DNA of 64,000 nt. It comes from Pseudophaeomoniella oleicola. Lineage: Eukaryota > Ascomycota > Eurotiomycetes > Phaeomoniellales > Phaeomoniellaceae. Shown here piece by piece: positions 18,152 through 56,800 of the stretch (position 1 is the stretch's first letter; each line of letters opens with the position of its first letter). The notes beneath the pieces are model-generated. The model saw only the letters and a list, made by a program, of their open reading frames with translations. It searched no databases and was not told where the DNA came from. The position numbers were made by a program, and so were the translations under genes. The stretch covers positions 364,186 through 428,185 of the forward strand of contig QWDQ01000018.1 in assembly GCA_003868215.1 (NCBI GenBank), given 5' to 3'.

Positions 18152-18922
18152 GTCACCTCAGACTGTTTATCTAACTACTGCATATAAAGCCTTTGCTCGT
18201 TGGATCACATTGATCTAGTACAAATAATGGGTTTGCGAATTTAAGAGTCCTGGCGTAAGGCGTTCCGGAATGGCTTTGACAAATGGTTAGATGGCGATAC
18301 TAGAGCATTCCAGCATTGGAGAGGGAGGACATCGAGATATCATCCTGCAGGTGCTTGGTTCATGTGGAACTCAACACAGTCTTAAGACCTTTCCCCTGCA
18401 CACTTCCTACATAGGTAGCGTCGACGCCACTGCCATGGTTTTCTGTGAACATCTATCATTTACGGAGGGTATCGCAACATATACAATAATATGGTCATTG
18501 CCGTCTTGTACCATAACGGACAAGTCGAGAACCTAGCTACAACAGATGATGCCACTTTCGGTTTAGCGCATAATCGCCTTTGGCGCCTGGCGGAAGAAGC
18601 TGTTGCCTCCATCACCTTCCTGCAGCAGATTCACTTTTCCCCTGTAATCAGCCTTCACTTCCAACTTCACTTTCCATCTGGAATCACTGTTTTCTTCCAT
18701 AAAACATCATCATCACTTCGTACATTCTTTATTTGACCAGTTTCAATCAATAACACCTCTGGGTTTCACTTGCTCACACTAAGCTGTCGTCTGAGATACT
18801 TGAAATATCGCATCGCGCCTTTTGGACACCTCAACTGCTGCCAAAGACGATCGCATTGTGTCGCGCAATCCCTCGTTGATTCAGTATTTTATACCATCAC
18901 TCCTCCAAGTTCCATTTCCAAG
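18152..18922. other. Intergenic, Yra1/Mlo3 promoter
   Basis: About 770 bases between two plus-strand genes. The second half is pyrimidine-rich, as in strong fungal promoters. No further gene seen. Confidence 0.5.
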
Positions 18923-20729
18923 ATGTCTGGAAAGCTCGACCAGTCGCTTGATGAAATCCTCAGCACGCGCCGCAAGGCAGGTCATCGCACCCGCCCCCGA
19001 GGCGCAAAGGCAGGAAAAACAAATGCCCCTCCTAGTGCACCAACCGGTGGAATCAAGAAATCAACGAAGCAATCTAAACCCGCTGCAAAGGCAGCTCCTG
19101 TCGCTCCCGCGTCAGTCCCCAGAGAAAGCAAGATCGTCGTGAGTGGCTTGGTGAGTTTCAACTTAGCTACGACTCGTTGCGTACCAAAAACTAACCCATG
19201 TCCTAGCCCACCGACGTAAACGAAGCGCAGATTAAGGTATGTGATTGAGAGGTCTTCGCCTTGGATTTTCGTCGCCGTACATTCCGAATCTGCAACCTGT
19301 CGAGATTTCGTGCAATTGCACTTTGCACCTCGCTTCCTCATTGGATTGACGAAGCACGTGTGTCATGCTGAAAAGGTGACACTGAGCCATCCCTCTGTTG
19401 TATTTCAACTCGCCAATATATGGTTTGACGCGAAAATATAAGAGGTCGATGCGCCGACCTTGCGATTTCAAGCGCTCATGCACAAGTATATCGAGCGAGC
19501 ATGAAAGCGCCTCTGATGCAGGTCACGTAATCTGGAGATCTCTGCATCCCAGGTACTCAAGCTGGTCACGGGACTGATTTCACCTATCTTCATGTGTTAA
19601 GGAGCATCAGTGAGCATTGCTACATCGAGCAAGCAGCTTAGCAAATATTCAAGTTCGGCTACGACAGTCCTGAGAGATCAAACGGTTTGTTTCCTGTTCG
19701 TCGCACCACGACACACGAGCGGTGACAGACCGTTTGTATTTATACAGCGCAGTGGTAACTCCACCTGAATACCCCGGCAAATTACAGTTTCCACACTTGG
19801 ACGAGCTATAACTATGCAAACAATGTCATCTGTTATCGTTCTCACCAAACATACAGGCTGTAGATGCTAGGGCTGGGTCGACATCTACTGTCCCGTATCT
19901 TCGGTCTTTGGTCATATCAAAGAGGACTGCTCATTACTAACGCGCTCAATTTGCTCGCTGATGCTCCGGTGCTATGGGGCCCTGGGTATATCTCCTTGGA
20001 TCGGCGGCTTCGTCCTTTTTTGAACTCGAGCTCGATACGATTTGTCACTTTCGCTTGTGTCTTACCAGAGAACTAATCGCACGGTCACCATGGTTAGGAA
20101 TACTTCCAAAAGTCTGTTGGCAGTGTCAAACGAGTCATCATTACGTACAATCAGCATGGTGTGAGCCGTGGCATTGCCCAGATCTTTTTCGGCAAATCAG
20201 ATGCTGCGGCAAAGGCTGCCAAGGACCACAATGGCATGCTTGTTGACAAGAAGCCTATGAAGGTACGGAATGGTCCCGAGAGTGGTTCCGAATCCAGACT
20301 AAAGTAGTACAACAGATTGAGCTGGTATTGGATGCTCAAGCCGCACCAACTCGAGCTGCTCCAAAGCCGCTAGGAGAACGAATATCGTACGCACCCGGCA
20401 AGAAGTCAGGACAGTTTGGTCCACTGACCAAGAACAGCGCAAACGCCAAGGCTCAGCCTAAGTCGGCAACCTCAGCAAAGCCCAAGGACGCTACCGCTGG
20501 ACGTGGTGGACGTGCAACTCGCGGTCGTGGTCGTCGAGGTCGGACCCCAGGACGTCCTAAGAAGACAGCTGAAGAGCTCGACCAGGAGATGTCGGACTAC
20601 ATGACCGGTGCAGCTGCTAACAATGATGCCAACGCAGCAAACGCTGCGCCTGCAGCTTCGGCGCAGACCAACGGGGAGGACCTCGGCATGGATGAAATTT
20701 CTGTTAGCTCCCTCAATTTCATTGTCTAA
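18923..20729 (+). CDS. YRA1: ALY/REF mRNA export adaptor (Yra1/Mlo3)
   Basis: Four exons: 18923-19150, 19207-19236, 20098-20262 and 20316-20729, giving 278 residues. The N-terminus has the REF box (LDQSLDEILSTRR). An RRM spans about residues 70-143: KIVVSGL as RNP2, SRGIAQIFF as RNP1. The C-terminus is Arg/Gly-rich (GRGGRATRGRGRRGRTPGR). Such proteins bind mRNA with the TREX complex and hand it to Mex67. The ending differs from the usual UAP56-binding C-box, so one more terminal intron is possible. Introns 1 and 3 are 56 and 53 nt, but intron 2 is 861 nt (19237-20097, GTATGT...CTAAT...TTAG) and splits the RRM. Yeast YRA1 is also known for one unusually long, poorly spliced intron used in autoregulation. 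Confidence 0.92.
19237..20097 (+). other. Unusually long 861-nt intron within the RRM of Yra1/Mlo3
   Basis: The donor is AAG|GTATGT and the acceptor GGTTAG|GAA, with a CTAAT branch site 24 bases before it. The next-longest intron assigned in this window is 175 nt. No ORF inside matches a known protein. The flanking exons join in frame to give VNEAQIKEYFQKSVGSVKR, the expected RRM helix 1. Confidence 0.85.
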
Positions 20730-21774
20730 ACCCGAAGTTGCCAAACTGACCCTCGAATCAGTAAATATTCACACGGAAATTCGCTACATATTTCCATTTC
20801 TTTTGGTCGTTCTCAAGGACTAGTTGATAGGTGTTGTGCTGGAGCAGGTAGTAGGAAGGCCGGATATTTCGAGATTGTACTCTTAACAGGATGAACTTTG
20901 GAAGGACTAGGACTTCATCAGGATGGATTAGTGTCAGATCAAACGCCTATCATAGTTTGTTTCCTCCGGTATCGATGACCAAGCGTTTGCAATAATAAAC
21001 AACAATATGTTATTGGATGACACCGGCTGCACTCTCCAAGAAACACTTCCTGACAGTGCTTGCGTATTGTCTTCCTCTGTGCAAAGCTGTAGTACTGCAT
21101 CGACGGCTTGATTGTTGAGAAAGAAAATGGAAGTACTGAGAACGAAGGACTGAGAAGTAGATGATGTGAAGCCAACATACGGTAGCAGTTATCTTGACAA
21201 GAGGCTACGCTATGCCTTGACAGTGAGTTAGTAGTACCTAACACCGTCTCATTCCTTCTGGATAGCACTGCTTGAATACTTGATTATTCACCGACAGAAG
21301 ATTTCGTCTGTATTCGTCAGCTCTATGCGAAGATTGTTTACTCTGTATACTACGGTATACACCCCACGATCACGATCTGCGTTGCCTTGGTGGAGAATCG
21401 TTGATATGATATCACTGACGTTATTCCTATGTATGTTTACCGCTGAAACGGAACGCACGCCCAATTGACTTCCATGTCATAACATGTCGCGTGCCAGCAT
21501 CATTGTCTACAATTCCGTTCCGTTGAATCCGTTTGCATGACTTGACACGTCAGGGAATAACCACGCTCGTTTTTCCCAAACGTTAGGAATCCTATCTTGT
21601 AGGAAGAGCAGTGAATATAAAAGTCAAACAAGGTGTTCCTAAGCACGAGTGCACGATTCGGGACCTCGGAAGGCACATGTGATACTTAATATCTGTGACG
21701 CGATATTTCTTGGATACTGCAGAGCTGTTACAGTCCCTCTCTCTCCTTTTCTCCAGTCCAGGAAGCACAGTACA
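20730..21774. other. Intergenic, no gene seen
   Basis: About 1 kb after the Yra1/Mlo3 stop. It includes a TATAAA at 21616 that may serve the small membrane protein gene downstream. Confidence 0.5.
21616..21621 (+). promoter_or_regulatory. Possible TATA box
   Basis: TATAAA lies about 155 bp upstream of the start codon at 21775. Position and sequence fit a fungal core promoter, with a pyrimidine tract between it and the ATG. Confidence 0.3.
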
Positions 21775-53875: not shown

Positions 53876-56800
53876 ATGGAACCTTTTACGCCTCCTCATG
53901 GCACCTATCACAGAAGGGCCGTGTTGGCAGACAAGACATCTCAAGCGATCAATGGATCGCCACAACCACATACGGTAGATGCGCTAAGGGATTCGACCTT
54001 GCTACCACACCATGAGTCTCTCAAGCCTGAAGGGAACCTGGCCAGACATACGCGATCTGGTTCTCCTACTCACCCAATCGTTGAGAACAAACGTCTCTCC
54101 GTTATTGCGAATGACAGCCAACCAAACTCGAACAGGAACTCTGCCATCTCTACGACCTCAACAGCTTCAGGTGGGAAGTCAAGAAGAAAGACCCATGTAG
54201 GACCATGGCAGCTGGGGCGTACCTTAGGGAAAGGGGCTACTGGGCGGGTTCGCTTAGCCAAGCATAAAGTGACAGGACAGGCTGCCGCTATCAAGATTGT
54301 TTCAAAGAAGTCTGCAGCCCTAGTTCAAAGCGCCAGTATGGCTCAGATGGAGAAAGAGGTAGTGATGCCGCCCACGGCTGCCGGTTTCCGGTTGATGCCC
54401 TTCGGTATTGAAAGAGAAGTTGTCATTATGAAACTGATTGAACATCCTAATGTCATCAATTTATATGATGTATGGGAGAATCGCGGAGAACTGTATGCTA
54501 TGCATTTCGCTAAACTCAGGTCCACCGCTAACATCTGACTCAGATATCTTGTGCTTGAGTATGTCGAAGGCGGTGAACTCTTCGACTACGTTTCCTGCTA
54601 TGGAGCACTGCCAGAAGAGGAAGCCGTCCGTCTGTTTCGCCAGATTATTGCTGGACTATCATACTGTCATCGCTTTAATATATGTCACCGTGACCTTAAA
54701 CCGGAGAACATTCTACTCGACTCGAATCGCAATATCAAGCTTGCCGACTTTGGTATGGCAGCTCTTCAACCAGCGGGCCATCTTCTAAATACCTCATGTG
54801 GTAGTCCTCATTACGCTGCCCCTGAAATCATATATGGGAGAAAGTATAGGGGAGACAAGGCCGACATTTGGAGTGTCGGGATCATTCTCTTTGCCATGCT
54901 CAATGGCTTTCTTCCATTCGATGGAGGCGACGTACATTCTACTCTTCGCCTAGTGAAGAAGGGTGAATACTACCTGCCACCATCACTGAGCCCCGAAGCA
55001 GCGGATCTCATACAACGGATTTTACAGAAGCGGCCTGAGGACCGTATTAGTATGAATGGAATTTGGCAACATCCTTTGCTTAAGAAATACGAGAGATTTC
55101 ATAGTATCGGCCCTGATGGAACGGTAGTTGGGCCACCCCCAGCTTTGACCGCCAATGATTGCGGGCGTCCAGTGACGCGGCGATCAGAAATTGATCCAGA
55201 GTTGTTGAGGAATCTACAAGTCCTGTGGTATGGAGTAAAACAGGAAGAACTTGCTGCAAGATTACTGAGCGAAGAACCCAATCATGAAAAGCTCTTTTAT
55301 AAAGCCTTGATGCGATTTCGTGAAGAGCAATTGGAAAACTACCAAGGCCAACCATTGGAATATTCAGCAAGTGATTATCACCATATCTCCAAGCCAACCC
55401 CCAAACCTGCTGCCAAACGAGCGTCTGTCTCCCAAGCACGAGGACATCAACGCAGGAGGTCCCAGTTCTCAATTGTTAGCGATGATGGTCGAATGCGCGA
55501 CCACTACTACAAGGAACCTTCTGCGGCTGGCACCACCATCACTAATGAGAGCTATGACCCCTTCAGACCCTCGCGTAACCAGATGGCGGGACCTGAAGTA
55601 GAAGAGACAACCATCACAGTCCACGATGATAACGAGGCCGTTGAACAGCCGAAACCCTCTCAACCTGACGCTACTGTGGATGCGCATGTCGATAAGGAGC
55701 AGCGACCCGCTTCGAGTACGGCGCAGCAGATGGAGCCAGAGATACGGCCAATCCGTATTTCCCATGGTCCTGCTGTTTCAAGAACCTCCTTATCAAGCTC
55801 AAGGAGAATCGTCAGTGACGCTGTTATGCGACCGTCGACTAGCTATAAGCGACGTGTCAGTTTCTCGCACATCCGCCATCGGTCTACCGGAACACAATCA
55901 TCTCAATCGAAGGTCGCACACAGGCGGAGAGCTTCTACCATCGATAATAGTTCTCGCCCACCATCTCGCCATGACAATAGGCATAAGCCGAGCCCAAGTC
56001 ATAGTAGCCCAAGCTTGGCGGTTGATACTGCTCCGGCACCAAGCCCGCCTTCAGAGACCACACGTCAGCTCGAAATCAGAAAGCCCAGAGTCACAAGCAG
56101 CTACTGGAGGGAGGAAGCAAGGAAGGTCAGCCACGAGCTCGAAAAGATCTGCGAAGAAGCCTTCAACCGATCGTCAGTGTCTTCTGGTAGCGTAAATCAA
56201 ATACCTATGGACTCGCCTGCTACGACTGTCTCCATGGGAGACACCGCGGCATCCAGATCAACTTCCGCGAACGTCCTGATGAGTGACAGTATGAGGCGTC
56301 GAGCTCTACCAAAGCCTCCAACTGAGTCTCTAGGATCATTGACTTTACACGAGTTGGCAGAAACACGCCGACGCCTGATAGAGCATTGTGAAATGACCGG
56401 CTCGAGAGATATACCACCGTACATAGCAGGCGTCATCAGTCATCTCGACCGGTTGATGCAGCCTGAGATCACCGTTTCGGAGAGTGCTGATCGCCGTTCT
56501 GCGTCCGACCCATATCCCTCTACTAGCACTACGCCACGGTTGCCGTCTATTCTCGAGAGTAGTAACGTTCGTGACTCTGTCCAAAACATCATTGCAGAGA
56601 GTCGCAAAGATCAGACTTATCGGTCAGCATCTGACCCCCTCAGGACAAAACCGCTAGGACCACGGCCGGACAAGAAAACAATCCGTATCGTCGAGCCAGA
56701 AGCTCTGCCTTCCGTGGAGACCCCTGAGCCGTTGAGTATTCGCAAGCGGGGTACTACTCCTTACAACTCCTTACGTGGAGCTTCCACAGAATCAATCCCA

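Follow-up and report, generated by a model that had tools for sequence, protein, structure and literature searches.

The window, meaning here the whole stretch of 64,000 nucleotides that was analysed, carries on its forward strand (18923–20729) a gene of four exons encoding a 278-residue homologue of Yra1/Mlo3/ALYREF (table 1). The four exons, joined in silico, form an open reading frame of 837 nt with no internal stop, and all three introns lie in phase 0. The joined protein matches the Pfam family RRM_1 at residues 71–140 (profile positions 1–69 of 70, E 1.2e-11) and also matches FoP_duplication. Its best relatives of solved structure are REF2-I and ALYREF, with an alignment that spans the N-terminal box through the RRM. 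By its domains and alignments the host gene is a Yra1/ALYREF homologue. The original prediction, that an 861-nt intron interrupts the RRM of Yra1/Mlo3, is borne out by exon joining and by the intact RRM_1 match. Skipping of exon 2 (window 19207–19236) would delete ten residues of the RRM and keep the reading frame. The genome looks like that of a member of the Pezizomycotina, judging from the scores of its uL3 protein: 565.5 bits against 7olc/8oo0 (Chaetomium), 558.8 against 7r81 (Neurospora), 486.1 against 8esq (fission yeast) and 479.5 against the 4u3m/3j6x group (budding yeast). Elsewhere in the window, matches to the protein kinase domain are found at 54209–55078 on the + strand (C23:418394–419263), in a large gene that starts near 53876.

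Table 1. Features of the YRA1 homologue, with positions counted from the first letter of the window.
Feature	Position	Strand	Description
Exon 1	18923..19150	+	ATG start; N-box MSGKLDQSLDEIL; placed by exon joining and homologue alignment
Intron 1	19151..19206	+	56 nt; GTGAGT...ACTAAC...CTAG
Exon 2	19207..19236	+	30 nt, phase 0 on either side; encodes PTDVNEAQIK at the beginning of the RRM
Intron 2	19237..20097	+	861 nt, phase 0; GTATGT...ACTAAT...TTAG; shares its site with the YRA1 intron of S. cerevisiae
In-frame TGA	19246..19248	+	K/V C D stop on retention; frame-0 translation, frame from exon joining
Predicted hairpin	19679..19736	+	58 nt, -27.1 kcal/mol, with an outer helix of 13 bp; intron 2 has no stronger local structure
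Branch-point-like CTAAT	20073..20077	+	A is 21 nt from the 3' end of intron 2
Exon 3	20098..20262	+	Remaining RRM
Intron 3	20263..20315	+	53 nt
Exon 4	20316..20729	+	RG-rich tail, FoP_duplication, C-box-like EELDQEMSDYM, stop

An artefact of the gene model or the assembly is barely credible as the source of the long intron. With one penalty setting the gene finder omitted the 30-nt exon 2 and drew a single intron at 19139–20097, but a looser setting of the same program itself picked 19237–20097, exon 2 is required by protein homology, and the 861 nt contain not a single N. The REF2-I/ALYREF alignment is ungapped at the junction of intron 2, its nearest gap lying a few residues later, so that no exon is apparently missing within the intron.

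The donor of intron 2 is strong, the branch site is ordinary and the acceptor is adequate, in keeping with the earlier claim of a normal donor, branch and acceptor. The branch motif is CTAAT, not CTRAC; among the 22 ab initio introns with good flanks, CTAAT occurs in 3, of which intron 2 is one. A TACTAAC also occurs at 19935–19941 of the window, followed by its first AG at 20029–20030, and a CAG stands at 20066–20068, 29 nt upstream of the 3' site used; this TACTAAC and this CAG possibly represent an alternative branch point and acceptor, or chance. Retention of the intron places a stop at the fourth intron codon.

Fifteen 150-nt windows over intron 2, scored in six frames, are all negative for coding signal, the best reaching -1.1 per 100 nt, where the fifth percentile of coding windows is +0.54; the in-frame scores of exons 1, 3 and 4 are +2.9, +4.1 and +1.5. 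Nine open reading frames of 50–96 residues, on both strands of the intron, give no match to any Pfam family at E<=1, and Rfam scans of the whole window and of 18900–20800 return nothing at E<=5. These results argue against intron 2 being host to some other feature, whether a gene for a non-coding RNA or on the antisense strand, or an exon that is skipped or acts as a poison exon. That explanation could draw on two weak acceptor-like and two donor-like sites within the intron and on its strong local predicted hairpin, but at 19610 the internal acceptor and donor have one base in common and thus define no exon; we consider it improbable. A repeat or mobile origin was dropped, as the 26.1-Mb genome holds the DNA of intron 2 in one copy only, its sole match being itself. 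Scanning a collection of viral contigs gave two pattern matches, neither of them a relative, and scanning the genome contig collection gave two short bacterial matches (L029, L030), which are not fungal Yra1 genes.

The length of intron 2 was set against the gaps between consecutive exon matches in searches for kinase, p450, RRM, DEAD and Dbp2-like proteins, the rows being chosen by eye from the listings and forming a sample rather than a census. These 48 homology-placed, domain-splitting introns or gaps have a median of 55.5 nt, and 44 of the 48 do not exceed 104 nt; the remaining four measure 191, 271, 495 and 506 nt. The longest lies in a kinase, presumably SRPK-like, and reads mostly as open coding spacer, while the 495-nt intron, in DBP2, is the only other long intron read. 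At 861 nt, intron 2 is longer than every member of this sample, and the unusual length noted for it is thereby upheld. The ab initio gene finder proposed several introns of more than 861 nt, up to 1890 nt. These long candidates look like fusions of neighbouring genes, and ab initio lengths, being noisy, were set aside as a basis for any claim about length. Genuine introns of about 861 nt may occur elsewhere in this genome.

The YRA1 intron of yeast, 766 nt long in S. cerevisiae, is a textbook autoregulatory intron whose story is usually told for intron-poor yeasts, and an excess of Yra1 is toxic in yeast. In the yeast protein (226 residues, the last 30 of which agree with 5sup_G), exon 1 presumably ends between R95 and E96. 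Alignment of this sequence with the window protein sets VR/EFF over IK/EYF, ungapped around the junction, with intron 2 falling between K86 and E87; the ten residues of exon 2, PTDVNEAQIK, align to PRDIKQDAVR of the yeast protein. The YRA1 intron sequence of S. cerevisiae starts at nucleotide 286 according to PMC2864733, and the yeast exon 1 is therefore 285 nt, or 95 codons, long. Because of this start and of the ungapped alignment, intron 2 is placed where the S. cerevisiae intron lies, at the same codon boundary and in the same phase. By our arithmetic, three introns in 837 nt would match a given nucleotide position by chance in about 0.4% of cases. As site and phase are equal, in a comparison with one yeast sequence, intron 2 was probably inherited from a common ancestor with the S. 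cerevisiae YRA1 intron. The kinship with the yeast intron that had been proposed is supported both by this shared boundary and phase and by an unusual predicted structure.

The predicted fold of intron 2 has an energy of -278.3 kcal/mol, with z-scores of -3.28 (20 shuffles) and -3.6 (60 shuffles); its antisense strand gives -2.44. Random 861-nt segments of the genome reach no lower than -2.3 in one set (n=24) and -1.66 in another (n=30), and intron 2 is predicted to be more structured than all 54 of them. The 120-nt window around the hairpin of table 1 has a z-score of -3.75, the lowest of 120 control windows being -2.66. The hairpin was rejected as a rare element in itself: helices of 13 bp were counted 157 times in 528,000 strand-bases, and 60-mers of equal stability (-26 kcal/mol or lower) 97 times in 525,480 strand-nucleotides, about one per 5.4 kb of strand. 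Sequestration of the donor as a property specific to intron 2 was likewise dropped, all three donors of the gene being predicted to be largely paired. In sampled regions of the genome, inverted repeats on AGGTAGGTA or ACTACGTAGTAGG motifs occur at L013:8532–8614, L016:6635–6664 and L011:9457–9515.

The DBP2 homologue carries its 495-nt intron, in phase 1, on the minus strand of contig C69 (455969–456463; L026:848–1342). This intron interrupts the codon that matches D425 of yeast Dbp2, and exon 1 of yeast DBP2 ends one base into codon 425. Its RNA is predicted to be structured (z -3.38 or -4.4 in two runs), but since two of its 70 control segments have scores of -4.1 and -3.84 the support from predicted folding is weaker here than for intron 2 of YRA1. 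PMC4695336 describes a dbp2 intron kept in position and length, and states that yeast Dbp2 may be autoregulated via its intron. Intron 2 of S. pombe dbp2 offers a parallel: it too is long, its position and length are conserved, its gene encodes an RNA-export partner, and its counterpart is present in this genome. It differs from the case at hand in belonging to another gene and in that decay in S. pombe is nuclear and proceeds through Mmi1 (PMC4695336).

Intron 2 may be no more than a long intron, sharing its site by homology, grown by neutral insertion, spliced efficiently and without regulatory role. A good donor, an adequate branch and acceptor, and the want of any Rfam element matched in it at E<=5 would suit such an origin. 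Against it stand the high predicted structure of the intron, the background of introns and gaps, almost all of about 50–100 nt, and the position of the sole other long intron read, that of DBP2, at a site reported to hold a regulatory intron (PMC4695336). This explanation is therefore regarded as unlikely, though it is the strongest of the competing ones.

Long YRA1 introns are established in yeasts. According to PMC2911113, every hemiascomycetous yeast has a long intron in its YRA1 homologue, and the branch point of this intron is nearly always divergent; the first YRA1 intron of Yarrowia lipolytica measures 850 bp in the same paper, its retained transcripts being seen in NMD mutants. These Yarrowia transcripts go to NMD, and Yarrowia probably does not share the Edc3 route known from S. 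cerevisiae (PMC2911113). In Cryptococcus neoformans, mutation of upf1 is accompanied by more retention of the YRA1 intron (PMC5006051). Saccharomycopsis has YRA1 introns of 850 and 748 bp (PMC13148404), and for the Saccharomycetaceae PMC4937481 lists a structured intron in YRA1. In the text searched, PMC11694984, on Cladosporium, does no more than cite the yeast paper. Long YRA1 introns are thus already in print for yeasts, and retention for Cryptococcus; what would be new here is the filamentous ascomycete, since searches of an open-access library returned no report of a long YRA1 intron in such a fungus. The founding papers (Preker 2002, 2006; Rodriguez-Navarro 2002) may mention filamentous fungi.

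The intron described here resembles that of S. cerevisiae (Preker; Rodriguez-Navarro; Dong, Jacobson and He) in its orthologous gene, equal codon boundary and phase, similar size and immediate in-frame stop. It differs in being the second of three introns and in its other branch motif. The first YRA1 intron of Y. lipolytica is close in length (850 bp against 861 nt), and its host gene, also a Yra1 homologue, has other introns besides; retention and NMD sensitivity were measured in that yeast (PMC2911113). The likeness to C. neoformans lies in the Yra1 homologue itself, regulated retention being described as a feature of Cryptococcus; that organism, however, is a basidiomycete (PMC5006051).

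By analogy with these systems, we infer, with a probability of about 0.6, that intron 2 corresponds, in a filamentous ascomycete, to the regulatory intron of yeast YRA1 and acts through slow splicing, retention, NMD and feedback. Against this stand the strong donor and ordinary branch site, the pairing predicted for the donors of both short introns as well as for that of intron 2, and the commonness of hairpins as stable as the one in intron 2. The proposed sequence of events is as follows. (i) The length and structure of the intron would slow its splicing. (ii) Part of the YRA1 transcript would keep the intron. (iii) The retained transcript would encode only an 89-residue stub. (iv) This transcript would be removed, most likely by NMD. 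(v) An excess of Yra1 would lead to less splicing, so that Yra1 would limit its own level. UPF1 is encoded in this genome. An Edc3-like open reading frame is also present, combining FDF and YjeF_N in one 672-residue frame (C25:992287–993378), and the Edc3_linker profile has no matches in a genome search run without a working control.

The full S. cerevisiae mechanism, with export of the retained pre-mRNA by Mex67, translational repression by intron modules, decapping dependent on Edc3 and transcripts spared by NMD, has little probability here. The Edc3-like frame speaks for it without itself showing the pathway; the blank Edc3_linker search, with the limit just given, and the Yarrowia precedent, in which YRA1 transcripts go to NMD instead (PMC2911113), speak against it. 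An Edc3 variant is less likely for intron 2 than the NMD route, because Yarrowia seems to be without the Edc3 route.

A broader and more tentative proposal, which we would not put at even odds, is that the structured, retention-prone introns of YRA1 and DBP2 form an ancestral autoregulatory pair of mRNA export, older than the divergence of Saccharomycotina from Pezizomycotina, with NMD as the old route of decay and Edc3 as a late replacement. That the YRA1 intron has the yeast site and a size like that in yeast, in a filamentous ascomycete rich in introns of which nearly all those sampled are about 50–100 nt, suggests that selection has kept it long. If so, ideas on how the switch arose, and on how its NMD and Edc3 forms did, would be testable by comparative genomics and with existing RNA-seq. 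A long intron at the yeast site hints at an old self-limiting switch that is not confined to the yeasts.
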